A DNA stretch of 49,862 nucleotides from a virus, in the IMG/VR virus record IMGVR_UViG_3300037156_000185, positions 1-49,862 of that record. One strand, written 5' to 3'. Position 1 is the first letter of the stretch; each line of letters starts with the position of its first letter. The notes under the pieces are model-generated. The model had not been told where the DNA came from. It ran no database searches and saw only the letters and a program-made list of their open reading frames with translations. Both the position numbers and the translations under genes were made by a program. Positions 12,318 through 31,392 of the stretch are shown here, in pieces.

Positions 12318-14798
12318 ATGACCGGCCGCCCCTACAGCGCTCTCGACGAACTGCAGCAAAAAGCCATCGATGACCTTTATGAACACGATGAGCGCTTAGC
12401 GCTGCTCGAGACTGGCTTTGGCAAGACCGTGGCCGGTCTCACCGCCGGCGAGGAGCTGCGCGCGGCTGGCGTGATCAAACGCCCGCTAGTGTTCGCGCCG
12501 CTGCGCGTCGCCCAGAACACCTGGCCCCAGGAACGCGCCGAGTGGGCGCACCTCAACGACGTACCGATGGTCGAGTGGGGCGGCGAGCCGGCCAACTGGG
12601 CCCCAAGCCTCTGGCGCGACAGCCGGCAGCTCTACGGCCGCCGCCGGCATGCCGAGCAGCGCCTACCCAAAATCGAAGATGTTCGAAAAAGGCGGGAGAT
12701 CGAACACACGCTGGAGCACCTGTTAAAGAACGAAAGGGAAGTTAACAGGTCGATTCAAAAGACCATGCCTCCGGAGGCTTGGCACGTCACCAGTTTCGAG
12801 AACATCGAATGGCTGACCGATCTCTACGCCCCCGGCGAGTCGCCGTTCGATCTATGGATCGTCGATGAGACCGGGCGGGTCGCACGCAATCCGAAATCAC
12901 CGCGCTACAAGGCGCTGCGCAAGCACATGCCCCACGCCAAGATCCGGTGGGGGTTCAACGCCACGCCGGCGCCGGAGGGGGCTGAGGACCTTTTCGGCCA
13001 AGTGCAGTTGGTCGCCGGCAGGCGTCTATGGGGCTCTTCATTTTATAGCTGGCGGCAGAAGTTTTTCACGCCCGCGGATTATCAAGGCTACACCTGGCGT
13101 TTGCAGCTGGGCGCCTTTGACCTGCTGATGAACGACCTCAACAGCGTCGCCTTCCGCGTGCCTGCCGAGAAGCTGGCCTATCAGAAGAACATCACACACC
13201 GGCAGATCATGGTTGACCTGCCGCCAGTGGCGCGCGGCGCATACGATGAGATGGAAAAGACCATGGCCGTTGAGCTCGCGGCGCTCGGCCTACCCGACGG
13301 CGATCCGATCGTCGCGATGAGCGAGGCCGCGGCGTCGACCAAGCTCCGGCAGATAGTTCAAGGGTATTTGTACGAGGTAGACGACAAGGGCCGGCGCACT
13401 GTGCATATCCTGCACGATGAAAAGACCCAGGCGATCGCTGAGCTGATCGATTCGATGGGCCGGGAACCGCTGCTCATCGCATACGCCTTCGATCAGGATC
13501 TGGATAATCTGCGCAAGATCTGGAAAGGCATTCCATACCTTGGGCAGGGCGTGTCGTCAGCCGTGGCTAGCGATCACATCGCCAAGTGGAACAAGCGCGA
13601 GCTGCCGGTGCTGGCGATCCACCCGAATTGCCTCCATCCAGACACTTTAGTCTTGACTGAAGAAGCCGGATGGAAGAAGCTCATCGACGTTCGCGCCGAT
13701 GAGCGCGTGTTCGATGGGATTGAGTTCGTCACCCATAGCGGCTGCCAGATGTCCGGGGTTCGCCCGGTTATCGAGCGCTTCGGAATTGTGATGACGCCCG
13801 ACCACCGAGTCCTCGTCAACGACGAGTGGATAAAGGCCGAAGATGTACGAGATATTGGAAGTGTTCGCCGAGCGGCGCGTTACCACTACGCAGGCGCTGA
13901 AGGTCGCGTCAGTGCGCTGTTTGAATTGCGGGAAAGTGGTGGAGATGCTCCTTCAGAACGCGGTAAGGGCCAACAAAACCAAACGATCTTACTGCCCGTT
14001 TTGCATAAAAGAGACCTTCCATTATATGACCAACTCGCGCCCGTATCGCACCTGGCGCGGCCTGCTGGACCGGATCGAGAACCCAGAAAACCCGAGCTAC
14101 AAGCACTACGGCGGGCGTGGAATCACGGTCGATCCAAGCTGGCAACGGTTTCAGAATTTCTGGGCCGACATGCAGGAAGGTTATTCGGACGACCTGACAA
14201 TCGAGCGCATCAATGTGAACGGCAATTACTGCAAGGAGAACTGCTGCTGGGCTACGAATATGGAGCAGCAGGCCAACAAGCGCAACAATCGGATCGTGGA
14301 ATACAAGGGCCAGCAGATGCACTTCTCCGAATTTTGTCGCGTCGCGGACGTGACGAAAGGTGGGATCAGGTACTATCTCAACCGGTACGGAACCGGAGAC
14401 GCGGCGATGGCAGCGTACTTGAAATCGACCTACCCGAGATGGCGAGTCAGCCGGAAGGGCTACAAGTTTCGCAAAAAGTCTACGACCTCGTCGACTGCGG
14501 TCCCCGCCACCAGTTCGTAGTGCGAAATGACGCTGGTGAGGCGTTCATCGTCCATAACTCGGCCAGCCATGGCCTGAACCTGCAGTATGGCGGCCACCAC
14601 ATCGCCTGGCTGGCCCTACCCTGGAGCCTAGATGCCTTCAAGCAGAGTTGTGAAAGAATCGATCGGCGCGGTCAGACCAAGGCTTGCTACAGTCATCACA
14701 TCCTGGCGCGCGACACCATCGATCAGAAGGTGTCCGATGTGCTGGTGCAAAAGAACGCCGATCAGAACCTAATAATCCACGCGATCAGGAGCCTATGA
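12318..14798 (+). CDS. SNF2-like helicase/ATPase interrupted by an intein
   Basis: An 826-codon frame. Helicase residues 1-437 and 748-826 make a 516-residue SNF2-type protein: Walker A 'LLETGFGKTVA' (about 30-40), motif II 'LWIVDETGR' (about 180), motif III 'GFNATPAP', then the second RecA domain with 'EPLLIAYAFDQDLDNL'. Motif V 'HPN / SASHGLNLQYGG' is split exactly by a 310-residue insert that begins with Cys438 and ends with His-Asn before Ser748. Motif VI is 'QSCERIDRRGQT'. Splicing would be needed for activity, since motif V is broken. It follows VRR-NUC, its usual phage partner. Much of the insert, about 510-710, looks like out-of-frame translation of the HNH gene it contains. Confidence 0.87.
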   Translation: MTGRPYSALDELQQKAIDDLYEHDERLALLETGFGKTVAGLTAGEELRAAGVIKRPLVFAPLRVAQNTWPQERAEWAHLNDVPMVEWGGEPANWAPSLWRDSRQLYGRRRHAEQRLPKIEDVRKRREIEHTLEHLLKNEREVNRSIQKTMPPEAWHVTSFENIEWLTDLYAPGESPFDLWIVDETGRVARNPKSPRYKALRKHMPHAKIRWGFNATPAPEGAEDLFGQVQLVAGRRLWGSSFYSWRQKFFTPADYQGYTWRLQLGAFDLLMNDLNSVAFRVPAEKLAYQKNITHRQIMVDLPPVARGAYDEMEKTMAVELAALGLPDGDPIVAMSEAAASTKLRQIVQGYLYEVDDKGRRTVHILHDEKTQAIAELIDSMGREPLLIAYAFDQDLDNLRKIWKGIPYLGQGVSSAVASDHIAKWNKRELPVLAIHPNCLHPDTLVLTEEAGWKKLIDVRADERVFDGIEFVTHSGCQMSGVRPVIERFGIVMTPDHRVLVNDEWIKAEDVRDIGSVRRAARYHYAGAEGRVSALFELRESGGDAPSERGKGQQNQTILLPVLHKRDLPLYDQLAPVSHLARPAGPDREPRKPELQALRRAWNHGRSKLATVSEFLGRHAGRLFGRPDNRAHQCERQLLQGELLLGYEYGAAGQQAQQSDRGIQGPADALLRILSRRGRDERWDQVLSQPVRNRRRGDGSVLEIDLPEMASQPEGLQVSQKVYDLVDCGPRHQFVVRNDAGEAFIVHNSASHGLNLQYGGHHIAWLALPWSLDAFKQSCERIDRRGQTKACYSHHILARDTIDQKVSDVLVQKNADQNLIIHAIRSL
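13629..14558 (+). other. Intein in helicase motif V
   Basis: The insert has the splicing blocks of an intein. Block A begins with Cys1 ('CLHPDTLVLTEEAGWKKLIDV'-like). Block B is 'FGIVMTPDHRVLVN' with the T-x-x-H signature. Block F is 'KVYDLVDCGPRHQFVV' and block G is 'AFIVHN' followed by Ser+1 of the helicase. Length is 310 residues, but only about 70 N-terminal and 40 C-terminal residues look like splicing domain. The middle is Arg/Gln/Gly-rich with no endonuclease motifs in this frame. Insertion in a conserved ATPase motif is typical of inteins. Known chemistry: Cys1 and Asn-end/Ser+1 support standard protein splicing. Confidence 0.85.
13912..14520 (+). CDS. HNH homing endonuclease nested out of frame inside the intein
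   Basis: Read one base off the helicase/intein frame, this gives 202 residues from GTG 13912, with GAAGG 8 bases upstream; an ATG at 13843 in the same frame lacks a comparable signal. It starts with a zinc ribbon ('VRCLNCGK' ... 'YCPFC'), then the common phage HNH pattern: 'RTWRGLLDRIENPENPSYKHYGGRGI', 'WQRFQNFWADM', 'LTIERINVNGNYCKENCCWA', 'EQQANKRNN'. A C-terminal 'EYKGQQMHFSEFCRVADVTKGGI' looks like a NUMOD/HTH DNA-binding segment. The last 20 residues overlap intein block F and are probably not conserved. It is translated independently if the GTG is used; it would make the intein mobile. Confidence 0.85.
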   Translation: MRCLNCGKVVEMLLQNAVRANKTKRSYCPFCIKETFHYMTNSRPYRTWRGLLDRIENPENPSYKHYGGRGITVDPSWQRFQNFWADMQEGYSDDLTIERINVNGNYCKENCCWATNMEQQANKRNNRIVEYKGQQMHFSEFCRVADVTKGGIRYYLNRYGTGDAAMAAYLKSTYPRWRVSRKGYKFRKKSTTSSTAVPATSS

Positions 14799-15142: not shown

Positions 15143-15189
15143 GGCCGTAAGCCTCCGCGCGGAAAGCGCGCCACCTCTATAACACACGA

Positions 15190-15218
15190 AGGCCCCGACC
15201 GGTTGCCCGGTCGAGGCC
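15190..15218 (-). terminator. Hairpin between leftward genes, weak terminator
   Basis: A long GC-rich stem (GGCC, then GACCGG pairing with CCGGTC and GGCC, four-base loop) lies between the membrane protein and the next upstream leftward gene. On the minus strand it is followed by TTC and a loose T-rich stretch, so termination may be partial. Confidence 0.5.
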
Positions 15219-15257
15219 TCATCGCATATACTGAGGAACGTTAGGACCCAAGAGGCA

Positions 15258-18574: not shown

Positions 18575-19390
18575 ATGCCCCCCACCAAAACCCCGACCTG
18601 GGCGACTGAATTCGCGCAGTTCCTGCTCGACAGCGTCAAAGTGCCCTACGAAAGCCTAGCGCAGCATTTCCGCGATAGCGATTGGAAGTACCGCCTATTG
18701 CAGAAGAACGTCACACCGACGCCCGACGGCTCGATCCTAGTCGACACCGAAATCCACATCGGGCGGACCGCCGATCGCCTGGAATTCTTCGACACCGTAA
18801 CGCTGCGCCTGCCGCCGGGGCCCGGACCGGTCACGCTGGTGACGCGTGTGCAACTCGAGCAGTCGCTGCTCGCCGTGGTCTTCGGGCGTTTCCCGCCGCA
18901 GATCATTGCTGCGCCCACCGCTAACGCCGTACCGCCTCCAGGCGTCGGGCAGATGAACGGTGGCGATGCCCGACACGTCAATATGGGCGACGCCGATGTC
19001 GTGCTGCCCGGCGAAGATGGTGGGGAGTACGTCAAGGACGACGCGCCGGTGGTGAATGTCATCCTCAAACGCGAGCCGGACGGCCTGCCGATCTTCGTCG
19101 ATCTCTACGCTCTCGGTGAGGAGGATGGCTCGACTGGTGCTATCATCGATTCGGTGCTCGCCGAGGTCGATAGCTTTCTGAAGCTCGCCTCCTCGGTTGA
19201 GCAGATCAACGCCCTGGCGATCAAGAACCCCGACATGAAGGCTTTCCTCAAAGATCTGGGCGATGATCGCGATCGCGCTGAATTGCGCTCCATGGTCGAG
19301 GCCCGTATGCGCGAACTCACCGTCCCCGCCGCCGCGGCTGCGGCCGTCAACGCGCCACGGCGCCGGGTACGCGCCCCGCAGACCAACTAA
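18575..19390 (+). CDS. Hypothetical early protein
   Basis: A 271-residue protein from ATG 18575, with AAAGGAC 6-12 bases upstream. Three regions are visible: an alpha/beta N-terminal part (about 1-115), a Pro/Gly-rich middle containing 'NGGDARHVNMGDADVVLPGED', and a helical C-terminal part ('AELRSMVEARMREL') with an Ala-rich basic tail. No family is recognised. Second gene after the HTH regulator. Confidence 0.65.
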   Translation: MPPTKTPTWATEFAQFLLDSVKVPYESLAQHFRDSDWKYRLLQKNVTPTPDGSILVDTEIHIGRTADRLEFFDTVTLRLPPGPGPVTLVTRVQLEQSLLAVVFGRFPPQIIAAPTANAVPPPGVGQMNGGDARHVNMGDADVVLPGEDGGEYVKDDAPVVNVILKREPDGLPIFVDLYALGEEDGSTGAIIDSVLAEVDSFLKLASSVEQINALAIKNPDMKAFLKDLGDDRDRAELRSMVEARMRELTVPAAAAAAVNAPRRRVRAPQTN

Positions 19391-19420
19391 GAACCGTGTA
19401 ACGCTGAAAGGAACCAAACC

Positions 19421-19759
19421 ATGACCGACATTGCATCCATACTAGATCGGGCGAGACAGGCGATGGGGCCGGATCGGGAGATCGATGCGGAGATCTATCG
19501 GCTTGTCTATGACGGAGGCTGGACCTCCCGCATCATTACGCTCCCCGCCTACACCGGCTCACTCGATGCCATAATCGGGTTGATCGAGGCGAAGCTGCCG
19601 GGGTGGAACATGGCCGTGTGGATCGACGAGGAGCCGCAGGCAAACCTCTACCCAAAAGCGCAGCCATTCCCCGCCGAAATGGACATCTACGAGAGTGGCG
19701 AGACGCCCGCACTAGCTCTGACATGCGCATTCCTCCAAGCGTGGGAGTCGGTGAAATGA
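19421..19759 (+). CDS. Phage ABA-sandwich domain protein
   Basis: A 112-residue protein with CTGAAAGGAACC at 19404-19415. 'PAYTGSLDAIIGLIEAKLPGW' and the terminal 'ETPALALTCAFLQAWE' are the conserved ends of the small phage ABA-sandwich family, widespread in phage early regions and of unknown function. Confidence 0.7.
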   Translation: MTDIASILDRARQAMGPDREIDAEIYRLVYDGGWTSRIITLPAYTGSLDAIIGLIEAKLPGWNMAVWIDEEPQANLYPKAQPFPAEMDIYESGETPALALTCAFLQAWESVK

Positions 19760-20145
19760 CCCAGCTGAGCGACGACATACTGGCCGCATTGGATGCCCTT
19801 CCCGCCACGCTCGGGTGGGACGCCATCATAGCTCGTGTTTCTCCAAAAAGCGTGCAGTCCATGGCCACTGAGCTTCGTGACGCTCGCGAGAAGCTGGCGA
19901 AGTACGAGGGCCGCCGCCGCGTGGCGAAATGGGCCGGTGACCCTACGGTGCTCTATCCGAACGCCGATGTAGAAATTTTAGCGGAGGACGGCACCGACCC
20001 CTCCGTTCCGGCTCGACGCGCATGCTGGATTCGCTACTGGCCATCAAGTCGGGACTTTCCGGCGTACCGGTCGTGCGATCTTAGCGACCTCGATTTTGAA
20101 GAGGATCCCGCTGCCTTCCCGCAATCCAAGCCGGGGGTGAAGTGA
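19756..20145 (+). CDS. Hypothetical protein with coiled-coil segment
   Basis: A 129-residue protein from ATG 19756, overlapping the upstream stop (ATGA). 'SPKSVQSMATELRDAREKLAKYEGRRR' is a helix nearly repeated in the gene at 20633 ('SPERVRSMASELRDVREKVARYE'), so the two share a domain. The second half is acidic. No family is recognised. Confidence 0.6.
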   Translation: MTQLSDDILAALDALPATLGWDAIIARVSPKSVQSMATELRDAREKLAKYEGRRRVAKWAGDPTVLYPNADVEILAEDGTDPSVPARRACWIRYWPSSRDFPAYRSCDLSDLDFEEDPAAFPQSKPGVK

Positions 20146-20636
20146 TGAAAAACTTAGGCTATTTGCTCGCAGCAGCAGCGATGGCGCGCGTTGGTTCGGT
20201 CACCGCCCCTGATAGGGCCCAGACAACAACTGCTCCAGTTGAACTGCCTCACCGCCCGAGAGTCGGTGAAATGACCAAGCCAATCGCCTGCGCCGTGCTG
20301 GATAAATACGGGTGCCCCGCAAAGCTGCTTTGGACTGAGGCCCTGACGGACACAGTCCACGGCGACATGGACATCGAGTTCCCGACTGGAGCGCCCCATA
20401 GAACGATTCCGCTCTACGCCGTAGAATCGGACAATGCTCTTGAAACTGTTCGGTCGATGATAAAACCAGACTCAATCCTGGTCGCATCAGAAATTCGGGC
20501 TGACCGATTCCCACGCAAAGCCATATTCAATGCGCTGACCTACCTGACCAAAACCGGCGAGTTGGTGCGCATTGGATACGGCAGATATCAGTCTCCACCA
20601 TCTGACCTACCGGCCCTTGAAAGCAACCCCAAATGA
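20145..20636 (+). CDS. Protein with C-terminal winged-helix-like domain
   Basis: A 163-residue frame from ATG 20145. The first 20 residues are hydrophobic ('NLGYLLAAAAMARVGS'). The C-terminal 50 ('IKPDSILVASEIRADRFPRKAIFNALTYLTKTGELVRIGYGRY') read as a winged helix. An internal ATG at 20271 is preceded by the same AGTCGGTGAA context as the gene at 19756, so a 121-residue product starting there is quite possible; the hydrophobic N-terminus would then not be translated. Confidence 0.6.
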   Translation: MKNLGYLLAAAAMARVGSVTAPDRAQTTTAPVELPHRPRVGEMTKPIACAVLDKYGCPAKLLWTEALTDTVHGDMDIEFPTGAPHRTIPLYAVESDNALETVRSMIKPDSILVASEIRADRFPRKAIFNALTYLTKTGELVRIGYGRYQSPPSDLPALESNPK

Positions 20637-20962
20637 CCAAGCTGAGCGACGAAGAACTGGTCGAGATCATCGACGGCACAATCGGAGTCACGCCGGGGCC
20701 GTGGTATTGGGACGAGGGCGGCCTGCGCACTGAATGGGATGATCAAGAGCACATCATCTGGCCGGTGAACGCTATCCCTGGCGAGAACTTAGGGGCGTGC
20801 GGCCGGCTCTCAGAACCCCATGCAGCAGTCAACGCCGCCCACATCGCCCGCCTCTCTCCTGAGCGTGTGCGGTCCATGGCCTCCGAGCTTCGTGACGTCC
20901 GCGAGAAGGTGGCGCGATACGAGGCGGCGCTCGCGGCCATTGCCGATCGCTGGCGGGATTGA
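20633..20962 (+). CDS. Small early protein related to the 19756 gene
   Basis: A 109-residue protein, start overlapping the upstream stop (ATGA). 'VTPGPWYWDEGG' and 'NAAHIARLSPERVRSMASEL' are typical of phage early proteins that begin with a 'TPGPW' motif. Shares its C-terminal coiled coil with the 129-residue protein at 19756. Confidence 0.65.
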   Translation: MTKLSDEELVEIIDGTIGVTPGPWYWDEGGLRTEWDDQEHIIWPVNAIPGENLGACGRLSEPHAAVNAAHIARLSPERVRSMASELRDVREKVARYEAALAAIADRWRD

Positions 20963-21188
20963 GACGTTCAAGTCGTGCGAAGGCGGCCCGGGGCACAGCT
21001 ATGCAGAACCCACGGTTAGATTTGAAGGCGGTCTAGGGGAAGGCCCGCGGGCCTTCTCCGTCGCTGTCTCAAATGGACTGCCAGTAGTGCGACTTCGAAG
21101 AGTGTGGGGTGTAGATAATGAAATGCTTCATGGGCCGTGGTGGGAAATGACTTTCTCGCCAAACTATGAGCTTGAGGGCCGGCAATGA
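20940..21188 (+). CDS. Probable 5'-truncated or frameshifted early protein
   Basis: 'GIETFKSCEGGPGHSYAEPT', then 'VRFEG', 'NGLPVVRLRRVWGV', 'GPWWEMTF' match a conserved small phage protein, but a good start is lacking. A TTG at 20940 inside the previous gene gives 82 residues. Alternatively the frame joins the preceding gene by a +1 or -2 shift. The conserved block normally sits after a short N-terminal helix, which could be supplied by the preceding frame. Start therefore uncertain. Confidence 0.5.
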   Translation: MPIAGGIETFKSCEGGPGHSYAEPTVRFEGGLGEGPRAFSVAVSNGLPVVRLRRVWGVDNEMLHGPWWEMTFSPNYELEGRQ

Positions 21189-21190
21189 GC

Positions 21191-21219
21191 TTGACGGTTC
21201 GTAACCGATCGGCTATATA
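21191..21219 (+). promoter_or_regulatory. Rightward promoter without a downstream gene
   Basis: TTGACG (21191-21196), 17-base spacer, TATATA (21214-21219) followed by AGC, nearly the same core as the promoter at 18310. All genes downstream for 8 kb are on the other strand. Confidence 0.65.
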
Positions 21220-21225
21220 AGCCAT

Positions 21226-21312
21226 CGGTAAAGGCGTGGTTTCCTTTGCCGCCGTCCTCTGGGATGGTTCCTTTCAGAGAAGGCCCGGATCGCGAAAGCG
21301 TTCCGGGTCTTC
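21226..21312 (+). ncRNA. Candidate small RNA complementary to the phage ribosome-binding motif
   Basis: A unit of about 87 bases from the inferred start of the promoter at 21191 to a GC-rich hairpin (21281-21310). It contains GGTTCCTTTCAG (21266-21277), the exact complement of CTGAAAGGAACC found upstream of starts at 19421, 22733, 28300 and 28539. It also has a second, looser copy GGTTTCCTTTG near 21238. No ORF longer than about 20 codons lies in it. Function as an antisense regulator of translation is inference. Confidence 0.45.
21279..21312. terminator. Hairpin between convergent transcription units
   Basis: CCCGGA/TCCGGG-type stem with a GCGAAAGC-containing loop between the end of the rightward genes (21188) and the end of the leftward operon (21319). 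Probably terminates both directions; the T-tracts are weak. Confidence 0.6.
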
Positions 21313-21318
21313 GCTGTT

Positions 21319-21744
21319 TCAAGGAATGATCCCGAGCATTTGCGCGGCCACTGCGGCGCGTAGGCCTTTGCGCATTATATTTCTATAGTCAGCGAGCAGC
21401 TCGAGCGGGACGGCAAAGCCGCGCCGGAGATCCACGGCGCCCTTGCGATCGTTGGTGACGCCTAGCCGGCTGGCGAGCACGCGCACGCTCGCCGGTGTGC
21501 TGCCGGTGGCCGCGGCGATGGCGCTTGGGGCTAGGCCCTTGGCGTAGCCGTCGATCACCGCCTGGCGCAGTACGTCATCCTTCGGGCGTCCGGTGCGCGA
21601 CGGTTTGAAATATCCAGAACTGATGCCGACCATGTAGGCGTAGCGCTCGGTGCAGCCGGCCACCTGCGCCGCCTTGACGATACCCATGCCGGCCTTGAAG
21701 GCGCGGCGCAGGCGGGCGGCCTTGGTCCTGGGGCGAGCGGTCAT
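21319..21744 (-). CDS. Helix-turn-helix DNA-binding protein
   Basis: A 141-residue basic protein with two HTH-like segments: 'KAGMGIVKAAQVAGCTERYAYMVG' and 'GYAKGLAPSAIAAATGSTPASVRVLASRLGV'. Between them is a basic linker 'KPSRTGRPKDD'. It could be a transcription factor or recombination accessory. It is not near the terminase, so a packaging role is less likely. Last gene of the long leftward accessory operon. Confidence 0.65.
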   Translation of the reverse strand: MTARPRTKAARLRRAFKAGMGIVKAAQVAGCTERYAYMVGISSGYFKPSRTGRPKDDVLRQAVIDGYAKGLAPSAIAAATGSTPASVRVLASRLGVTNDRKGAVDLRRGFAVPLELLADYRNIMRKGLRAAVAAQMLGIIP

Positions 21745-22265
21745 CTTCCATGCTCCTGCCGGTAAACGGCCATGTCCTGGTCATTGCGTGGGATGGGTTT
21801 CTCGCCCGTGGCGAGCTCGACGTCGGCGGGCGGGATCATATCGCTCTCAGCGAAATTGACCATGATGCCGCGCATTTCCTCGGCGAGGTAGAAACTGAGG
21901 TTCTGGCGCGCGAGGCCCGGCTTGACGCGTAATTTGCGTGCGGCGATCTGCAGCGTGTATTGGCGCCCGTAGCGTGTGAACTTGGCGCCGTGCGGATCGT
22001 AGGACGGCGGTTCGATGCGCATGAGGACCGCCGGGATGCCCATGTCTAGGAGTCTTGCAAACTCGATACGGTGCTTCTTGTAGCGGTCGGCCTTGGGCGT
22101 GCGATCGAAGAAATACACCTTGTAGAGCGTGTCGTGCATTCTTAGGAGTTCAAAGATCAGATCCTCGCTGATCAGGAACTTCAGAGCGGTCTTGTCGTCG
22201 CGCAGCACGCCCCGACGGGCCATGGAGATCGACTCAACACGGATGCGCTGCTCGACGTGGGGCAT
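21741..22265 (-). CDS. Hypothetical protein
   Basis: A 174-residue protein. Alpha/beta composition with 'LIFELLRMHDTLYKVYFFDR', 'LLDMGIPAVLMRIEPP' and 'RQYTLQIAARKLRV'. An internal ATG (residue 15) is an alternative start. It overlaps the HTH gene by four bases. No family is recognised. Confidence 0.65.
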   Translation of the reverse strand: MPHVEQRIRVESISMARRGVLRDDKTALKFLISEDLIFELLRMHDTLYKVYFFDRTPKADRYKKHRIEFARLLDMGIPAVLMRIEPPSYDPHGAKFTRYGRQYTLQIAARKLRVKPGLARQNLSFYLAEEMRGIMVNFAESDMIPPADVELATGEKPIPRNDQDMAVYRQEHGR

Positions 22266-22733: not shown

Positions 22734-22746
22734 TGGTCGGTTCCTT

Positions 22747-22962
22747 TCAGGCTTTAGCGGGTAGCACGCGCACGCTGAAGACGTGGTGCACCTCGCAGTA
22801 GTCGGCGTTCTCGGCGTAGACGGGTAGGGCGCAGAAGACGTGCGCGCCATGGTGGCCAACGGGCCATCGACATTGGCCGTTAACATGGTGCTCAACAGTG
22901 ACCGGGCTCGAGCCGGGGAGTGGGTGCCAGATCCGATCGGCTGGGGTGCTGGCGTCGGTCAT
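22747..22962 (-). CDS. Small Cys/His protein with GcrA-like C-terminal motif
   Basis: Seventy-one residues. 'GQCRWPVGHHGAHVFCALPV' followed by 'DYCEVHHVFSV' has the C-R-W-P, F-x-C, Y-C-x-x-H spacing seen at the C-terminus of GcrA, the alphaproteobacterial cell-cycle regulator acting with sigma-70 and methylated DNA. The N-terminal HTH of GcrA is missing. It may bind zinc and interfere with host transcription, but resemblance is limited to this motif. Confidence 0.6.
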   Translation of the reverse strand: MTDASTPADRIWHPLPGSSPVTVEHHVNGQCRWPVGHHGAHVFCALPVYAENADYCEVHHVFSVRVLPAKA

Positions 22963-24623: not shown

Positions 24624-24693
24624 GGCGTGGTTCCTTTCGATCTTCTGGTGCTGCCCGCGTTGCGGCGGGCAGGGCGAGAGGGTCAGGCGCGGA

Positions 24694-25493: not shown

Positions 25494-25504
25494 TTGGTTT
25501 CCTT

Positions 25505-25582
25505 TCAGAGTGCCGCCAGCATGGCGGCGATGATGATCAGGGCGAAGAGAAGCAGGGCAAGGTCGGCTTTGCGGTCGGTCAT
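25505..25582 (-). CDS. Tiny membrane protein
   Basis: Twenty-five residues: 'MTDRKADLALLLFALIIIAA', then Met-Leu-Ala-Ala-Leu, one hydrophobic helix with a charged N-terminus. Start overlaps the upstream stop (ATGA). Very short, so supported mainly by coupling and composition. Confidence 0.45.
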   Translation of the reverse strand: MTDRKADLALLLFALIIIAAMLAAL

Positions 25583-28300: not shown

Positions 28301-28311
28301 AGCGGTTCCTT

Positions 28312-28539
28312 TCAGGGTGTGGTTTCGGTTAGATACTCGTGGCCAGCTCGAGCGCTTGCTTCCAAGGATAGCGCGGCAAGGTTGTTGCCGTTGGGCGCGA
28401 AGCCGGATTCGATTCGCATTGCCCACATGCGTAGCGCGTCGGGATGGGTGTCGTAATAGCGCCAATGGCGCGCGGCGCGGTCGCATTCCTCGGTGAGGCG
28501 CCGAATCAGTTCGTCTTTGTCGAGGTCGGTCCAGGGCAT
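28312..28539 (-). CDS. Hypothetical protein
   Basis: Seventy-five residues preceded by CTGAAAGGAACC. Begins 'PWTDLDKDELIRRLTEECDR' and is helical and charged. No family is recognised. Confidence 0.65.
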   Translation of the reverse strand: MPWTDLDKDELIRRLTEECDRAARHWRYYDTHPDALRMWAMRIESGFAPNGNNLAALSLEASARAGHEYLTETTP

Positions 28540-28558
28540 GGCGGGGTTCCTTTCAGGT

Positions 28559-29254: not shown

Positions 29255-29452
29255 TTAGGTTTGCGCGGCGGCGGTGAGGCGCCGCTTAGCATCGCGGGCA
29301 ATTTCTCGCCGCATGCCAGGCGAGAAGCTTTCCCACTGGTCTGAGGTACCGTTGAAGGCCCCGGCAGGAAGCTGGTCTAGCGTCGGGGTCTCAGTTGTGG
29401 GCGGGTAGGACCAGAAGTTTTTTGGGGCGGGGTGGTTACGGTCGATGCGCAT
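29255..29452 (-). CDS. Hypothetical protein
   Basis: Sixty-five residues with GAAAGGAACC upstream. Pro/Thr-rich N-terminus, then a basic helix 'GMRREIARDAKRRLTAA'. No family is recognised. Confidence 0.6.
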   Translation of the reverse strand: MRIDRNHPAPKNFWSYPPTTETPTLDQLPAGAFNGTSDQWESFSPGMRREIARDAKRRLTAAAQT

Positions 29453-29525
29453 TTTCGGTTCCTTTCGAGGGGATGGTTGACAGGCTCAGTGAAGCGCGCG
29501 GGTTAAGGCGCGCTTGGCTGAAGTG

Positions 29526-29783: not shown

Positions 29784-29813
29784 TTTCGGTTCCTTTCATT
29801 TCTCTATGACCTG

Positions 29814-31008: not shown

Positions 31009-31392
31009 TCGCCGGCGGATGGTCAGCCCAGATGATTAGGGCGTGACCATCCAAGGCTGCATGCGTGAGGCGCTGAGGTGGATGCTGTTGACCTTGGTGT
31101 TTCATGCGTGATGGTGTGGGTTGGAGCATGTGCGGCGCGGCGCTCGAGGCTGTTGGCGATTCGGCGATCGGCTGGCGCTGGCGGATTGGCGCGTGTGGCC
31201 GGATGGGTGGCGGGGTGGCGCCCCACCGCGGGCTGAGCGGGACTCCAGCTATAGATTAGGACTAGCCTTGTTCGTCGCGCTCTCACCTAAAAGCTATATT
31301 TTTCAGAAAATAAAAACCAAAACCGGACCGGCTTGCCGCAGTCCCCTCCCCCGCGCTAACCTGACCTCCGCCAACCCAGGAGCGCCCAGTCA
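31009..31392 (+). other. Noncoding stretch with one hairpin
   Basis: A 384-base gap. A perfect 9-bp inverted repeat (GGATGGTCA at 31017-31025 with TGACCATCC at 31044-31052) follows the previous stop and may terminate it. A short AT-rich run lies at about 31285-31320. I see no convincing gene on either strand. Confidence 0.5.

Follow-up and report, generated by a model that had tools for sequence, protein, structure and literature searches.

A putative phage small RNA complementary to the ribosome-binding motif of the phage's own early genes

The locus and its predicted RNA

The window, that is, the whole stretch of DNA analysed here, is an IMG/VR virus record of 49,862 bases with a GC content of 58.8%. 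Plus-strand genes extend from 19421 to 20962, possibly with a further open reading frame (ORF) to 21188, and stop just upstream of the unit described below; a cluster of minus-strand genes begins at 21319 on its right and continues to about 31 kb, so that the unit lies at a convergent junction. The first-pass annotation had placed it in a region where all genes are on the opposite strand, which is accurate for the rightward side and passes over the plus-strand genes upstream. The features of the locus are as follows:

21191..21219, plus strand: promoter TTGACG (21191-21196), 17 nt, TATATA (21214-21219), by sequence
near 21226, plus strand: predicted transcription start of the RNA
21227..21250, plus strand: hairpin H1, with an 8-nt loop containing GUGGU (21236-21240), by fold and covariation
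21251..21268, plus strand: hairpin H2, by fold
21266..21277, plus strand: anti-ribosome-binding-site (anti-RBS) segment GGTTCCTTTCAG, exact complement of the phage ribosome-binding motif CTGAAAGGAACC
21275..21316, plus strand: terminator-like hairpin H3, core 21279-21312, by fold
21319..21744, minus strand: last leftward gene before the unit, 141 aa, from the ORF list
21741..22265, minus strand: right syntenic marker gene, with an orthologue in all six phages compared, by alignment
18575..19390, plus strand: left syntenic marker gene, with an orthologue in all six phages, by alignment

Both signals from which the locus had originally been proposed, a promoter with 17-base spacing and a hairpin about 60 bases after it, are present at these positions, the GC-rich core of H3 beginning 60 nt past the -10. 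Because the final T is missing from its -10, the promoter falls below the threshold of a strict sigma-70 scan of the window and is absent from the resulting list. The neighbouring 141-aa gene has no match in Pfam, PHROGs or NCBIfam. A second long palindrome, at 21020-21073(+) within the possible ORF 20820-21188, has GAAGGCCCG and GCTGT[CT]TCAA in common with the terminator hairpin of the RNA.

The predicted RNA (21226-21317) folds into three hairpins with an energy of -51.1 kcal/mol and a z of -6.9, or -3.5 once the terminator is removed, and among 3,320 segments of 90 nt scanned for structure the one at 21241(+) ranks ninth by z. Between H2 and H3 the bases UCCUUU are predicted to be single-stranded, with an unpaired probability of about 1.0 across all six. 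The U-tract after H3 is weak (GCTGTTTC), and read-through past 21317 could, in the window fold, allow AAGGAA of the neighbouring gene to pair with UUCCUU and close the anti-RBS site. We rejected the possibility that the RNA encodes a peptide, since its GTG opens a frame of just 3 codons in one relative (G020) and 8 in another (G001). Elsewhere in the window, the most structured stretch is 15151-15240(-) (z -7.5), a GC-rich terminator-like hairpin with a weak U-tract, and 31021-31110(+), near the start of the leftward early cluster, holds a very long, near-perfect hairpin of about 20 pairs (z -5.4).

Conservation of the unit in related phages

Five collinear relatives of the window were found, all of them metagenomic phage records: G001 (67,049 bases), reached through a TerL search and collinear with the window for the greater part of its length, and, from later searches, G019 (21,098 bases), G020 (63,708 bases), G022 (44,858 bases) and G023 (17,301 bases). 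The left and right marker genes occur in all six phages, at 22-70% and 20-45% identity to the window, respectively, and the junction between them was read in each. Two further records, G025 (also G019b) and G030, share their source metagenomes with G019 and G023 and supply the complementary late region of the map; we treat them as probably the other part of those two phages.

Searches by DNA or by the near flanking proteins returned no relatives in the phages or viral_contigs sets, the left-marker protein had no match in the phages set, and TerL and DNA polymerase searches returned mostly distant phages. A left-marker profile run on 30 further records matched three, namely G022 and G023, which were both in the profile, and, weakly, G030. 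The motif word GAAAGGAACC occurs in 4 of 18 TerL-relative records (18 of the 80 fetched loci), only G001 having more than one copy. The pattern GGTTCCTTTCN{2,4}GAAGGCC matched four stretches in viral_contigs, comprising G001 and three others (L090, L091 and L093) that were set aside as unrelated on reading; the match in L093 resembles the ordinary ribosome-binding site of a leftward gene. Comparison of the phages also revealed that a helicase-like protein at 12318-14798(+) has, in the window and G019, about 310 inserted residues (436-747) that start with CLHP and finish with HN-S, whereas the aligned proteins of G001 and G020 lack them; the insert is presumably an intein, and the protein gave no match to an intein family.

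In all six phages whose junction could be read, as the first-pass annotation had proposed to check, the same unit stands at the same junction and in the same order: TTG, a 17-nt spacer, a -10-like hexamer whose second base is A, a GUGGU element, an anti-RBS segment and a GC hairpin. The sequence ATCGGCTA around the -10 is common to the window, G019 and G022. A promoter and terminator scan of four relatives (G001, G019, G020 and G022) listed a promoter (10/12) in G001 and terminators in G001, G020 and G019, and these three terminators, at this place, have better U-tracts than that of the window; in G022 neither element passed the scan rules, though its hairpin ends in CCTTTTTCG. The anti-RBS segments differ from phage to phage:

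Window: GGTTCCTTTCAG
G022: GGTTCCTTTCGA
G001: GGTTCCTTTCGG
G019: TTTTCCTTTCAG
G020: GGTTCCTTCGTG
G023: GGTCCTCCTTGG

GUGGU is the most constant element of the unit and, in five of the phages, occupies the loop of a 5' hairpin that covaries. Since the window H1 also contains GGTTTCCTTTG, a MAFFT alignment of the whole RNAs was misaligned, and H1 was instead aligned alone, anchored on GTGGT. Over the five phages, all 31 cells are paired and 5 of the 7 pairs change on both sides, a covariation score reached in none of 500 shuffles. G019 was excluded from this count because its hairpin is only CCAG/CUGG; it has no convincing GUGGU hairpin, and the model leaves few of its GUGGU bases unpaired. The predicted folds of G023 and G020 leave the anti-RBS segment partly paired. 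Without the terminator, z is -3.0 in G022, -2.3 in G001, +0.3 in G019, -0.8 in G020 and -0.5 in G023; in the last three the RNA is then no better than its shuffles, so that stability there comes mainly from the terminator.

A composite descriptor of the unit, written after the loci had been seen and with its distance limit widened once to take in G019, gave 17 matches in all the DNA searched, every one a copy of these six junctions, as compared with 2 in reversed sequence, 1, 0 and 2 in shuffles and 0-5 with permuted loop words. A covariance model (R1) built on four phages ranked the window unit second and misaligned (E 0.052) and G019 third (E 0.31), and with the window unit not cleanly found it is too weak as an independent test. 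The top match of this model, 29425-29488(+), lies antisense to start 29452 of an early gene; AAGGAACC is found at that start, and AACCACC early in the coding part.

Match between the RNA segment and early-gene ribosome-binding sites

The window contains five exact copies of CTGAAAGGAACC. Four sit 3-5 nt before the ATG starts at 19421, 22733, 28300 and 28539, precisely those before which the first-pass annotation had placed the motif, and the fifth is the RNA locus, with no start after it. Allowing up to two mismatches yields 17 sites against 2.9 expected, a number reached in none of 100 shuffles; the first-pass annotation had mentioned a dozen near matches and suggested a genome-wide count against chance. 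At thirteen of these 17 sites, an ORF of 52 codons or more begins with ATG, GTG or TTG within 3-10 nt, although one of the thirteen (10803) is doubtful, being opposite another ORF. Predicted targeting in the window is strongest at starts 22733, 28300, 5020, 28539, 25493, 29783, 24623 and 29452, and the sites located by motif search include:

22739..22750, minus strand: exact target motif, start 22733
28304..28315, minus strand: exact target motif, start 28300
28545..28556, minus strand: exact target motif, start 28539
19404..19415, plus strand: exact target motif, start 19421
29788..29799, minus strand: near-exact target motif, start 29783
29457..29468, minus strand: target motif (10/12), start 29452
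25497..25508, minus strand: near-exact target motif, start 25493
24629..24640, minus strand: target motif (10/12), start 24623

The shorter word GAAAGGAACC precedes starts in 9 of 10 copies in the window, 8 of 9 in G022 and 8 of 9 in G001, and in each of these phages the sole exception is the RNA locus. GAAAGGA is followed by ACC in 10/16, 9/17 and 9/12 cases, respectively, RNA locus included. Pairing with 16S rRNA accounts for GAAAGGA and not for ACC, which pairs by sequence with the RNA segment. GAAAGGAACC is absent from G019, G020 and G023 (G019b has two copies), and in these phages other words precede the starts: GGAAA(N)ACC or GGAGAAACC at 3 of 58 starts of G019b, as against 0 in the other phages; AACCAC at 9 of 115 starts of G020, against 0-2; and CAAGGAG at 6 of 40 starts of G023, against 0-3. 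The matching words of the RNA segments are GGTTTTTCC in G019, GTGGTT in G020 and CTCCTTG in G023. The early cluster of G020 (L102; oriented 10.4-19.3 kb) also displays an unusual module, AACCAC(N4-5)GGAGCACCTACC-ATG, before its starts.

We evaluated this correspondence by exchanging segments among phages, gene starts in all seed and duplex tests being defined by simple ORF rules rather than annotation. At early starts, only 4 of the 720 permutations, the own assignment included, matched or beat the assignment of each segment to its own phage; at late starts 353 of 720 were as good, which is unremarkable. This is the third version of the test: whole-RNA duplex energies and uneven segments gave no clean own-versus-other signal, since base composition dominated, and near-equal 16-nt segments with double-centred duplex energies were therefore used. 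Within single phages, the own segment was predicted to pair better with early than with late starts at significant levels in G001 (p 0.028) and G019 (p 0.001) and not in the window (p 0.63), G022 (0.43), G020 (0.09) or G023 (0.46), and pairing with 16S rRNA showed no early excess in any of the six. Seeds of 8 nt to the own segment were found at 10/38 early versus 0/26 late starts in the window, 5/40 versus 0/10 in G022, 7/26 versus 3/22 in G001 and 3/37 versus 0/23 in G020, with little at early starts of G019 (1/11) and none at those of G023 (0/13). Seeds to the H1 loop are not generally enriched at the starts of the six phages; ACCAC upstream of early starts is enriched in G020 only (10/35 versus 0.8 expected).

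Comparison with known RNAs, alternative explanations and proposed function

An Rfam scan of the window gave no match at the gathering threshold, and looser scans of the window, G001 and G023 units gave sub-threshold matches only. Among these, the alpha-r8 family, which we take to be the suhB-mmgR family (RF00519), reached 14.0 bits in the G001 unit against a gathering score of 41 and was not listed for the window or G023; CcsR1 (RF02791), a bacterial sRNA named for its C/U-rich anti-Shine-Dalgarno-like motif (CCUCCUCCC in the Rfam title), which the segment resembles, reached 12.7 bits in the G001 unit against 65.3 and was not listed for the window; and sar (RF00262) reached 12.4 bits against 43 in the window, on the other strand.

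The alpha-r8 sRNAs SisA-D of Caulobacter crescentus carry a single-stranded anti-Shine-Dalgarno-like stretch, UUUCCUCCCU, flanked by a weak hairpin upstream and a Rho-independent terminator downstream, and repress many targets (PMC12559287). They are closest in working to the putative RNA, sharing the open stretch, the hairpin before it and the terminator after it; a GC hairpin likewise follows the segment in all six phages, with a weak U-tract in the window. They differ in being chromosomal and bacterial, in having host targets and another core sequence (the UUUCCUCCCU 10-mer is in none of the six phage segments, the window having GGUUCCUUUCAG), and the part of the source at hand describes no GUGGU loop for them (PMC12559287). 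Phage precedents appear in a second source: the c4 antisense RNA of phages P1 and P7, which blocks a phage ribosome-binding site by pairing, and the sar RNA of phage P22, an antisense RNA controlling phage translation (PMC12197685). On that description the putative RNA resembles c4 in being phage-encoded and complementary to a phage ribosome-binding site, whereas c4 is aimed at one mRNA (ant) and the window segment matches many early genes; the single specific target mRNA of the c4/sar type is not what the window offers, where nine of ten GAAAGGAACC sites precede starts. A literature search, with most subscription papers outside its scope, yielded no example of a phage RNA directed against a ribosome-binding motif common to that phage's own genes. 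The RNA would work like the bacterial anti-Shine-Dalgarno sRNAs, yet it falls outside Rfam families at threshold.

The same features invite other explanations. The site could belong, as its ribosome-binding site, to a small leftward gene beyond the last early one, whether real or decayed, and the hairpin could be an ordinary terminator of convergent clusters, as convergent junctions are expected to carry; the minus-strand motif is a genuine ribosome-binding motif, and in G023 an ATG follows AAGGAGGACCG. We consider this unlikely, because five of the six phages have no start of a sizeable ORF at ribosome-binding distance and the G023 ORF runs antisense through the conserved left marker gene, so that the intact leftward gene named at the outset as the refuting observation did not emerge, and because promoter, GUGGU and complement would not all have been retained in every one of the six had the site decayed. 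Coincidence would mean that a convergent terminator chanced to contain the complement and to have a promoter-like match next to it. It has in its favour that such matches are common in the window (7 found between 15000 and 32000 versus 6.0 expected), but it seems very improbable given that six diverged phages have this assembly at a common junction, and given the covariation of H1 and the controls of the covariation, descriptor and swap tests.

Slightly more room, though still little, must be given to a real, structured RNA whose main target is the host, whether mRNAs whose ribosome-binding sites are similar, an sRNA of the host or a protein bound by GUGGU (taken jointly), the match to phage sites then reflecting only the shared Shine-Dalgarno core. 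UCCUUUC is also part of the 16S anti-Shine-Dalgarno tail, and the most constant element, GUGGU, finds a phage target only in G020; against this, the match takes in bases outside the Shine-Dalgarno core (ACC, AACCAC) and tracks the motif of each phage.

We conclude that the locus likely encodes a conserved phage small RNA. Its anatomy (promoter, 5' hairpin, open anti-RBS segment and terminator) is, as predicted, that of a trans-acting bacterial sRNA, and the general mark of trans-acting phage sRNAs, a promoter and terminator of their own outside coding sequence, is found by sequence and fold. Our main reading, to which we assign a probability of roughly two in three on the sequence evidence, is that this RNA acts at the ribosome-binding sites of the phage's own early genes to repress them. 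We infer transcription, pairing in the cell, repression and timing along the following lines. A phage small RNA of about 92 nt would be made from its own promoter and ended at its own terminator, with H1 displaying GUGGU at the 5' end; the single-stranded stretch between H2 and the terminator would pair with early-gene ribosome-binding sites and, occlusion being the simplest action, keep 30S subunits off many early mRNAs at once. Early gene translation would thereby be damped or shut off, whereas late (structural) genes, most of which are without the matching motif, would be spared. Were host polymerase to read the promoter from the start, the RNA would act as a self-limiting timer rather than a late switch.

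A broader proposal, for and against which we hold the odds to be even, is that the early genes of these phages bear a tag, in the form of an extended ribosome-binding motif specific to the phage, which a dedicated RNA recognises, tag and RNA co-evolving. If so, early translation would be switched genome-wide by RNA alone, with late genes spared, as well as much of the host where the extension (ACC, AACCAC) does not occur. The early-to-late switches of phages are usually attributed to sigma factors, polymerases or repressor proteins; one small RNA reading a shared motif would be a compact means of retiring an entire class of genes translationally, would account for the unusually uniform extended ribosome-binding site that the phage keeps, and would provide a natural example of multi-gene RNA control, in a model that the co-variation of RNA and motif across relatives makes directly testable.
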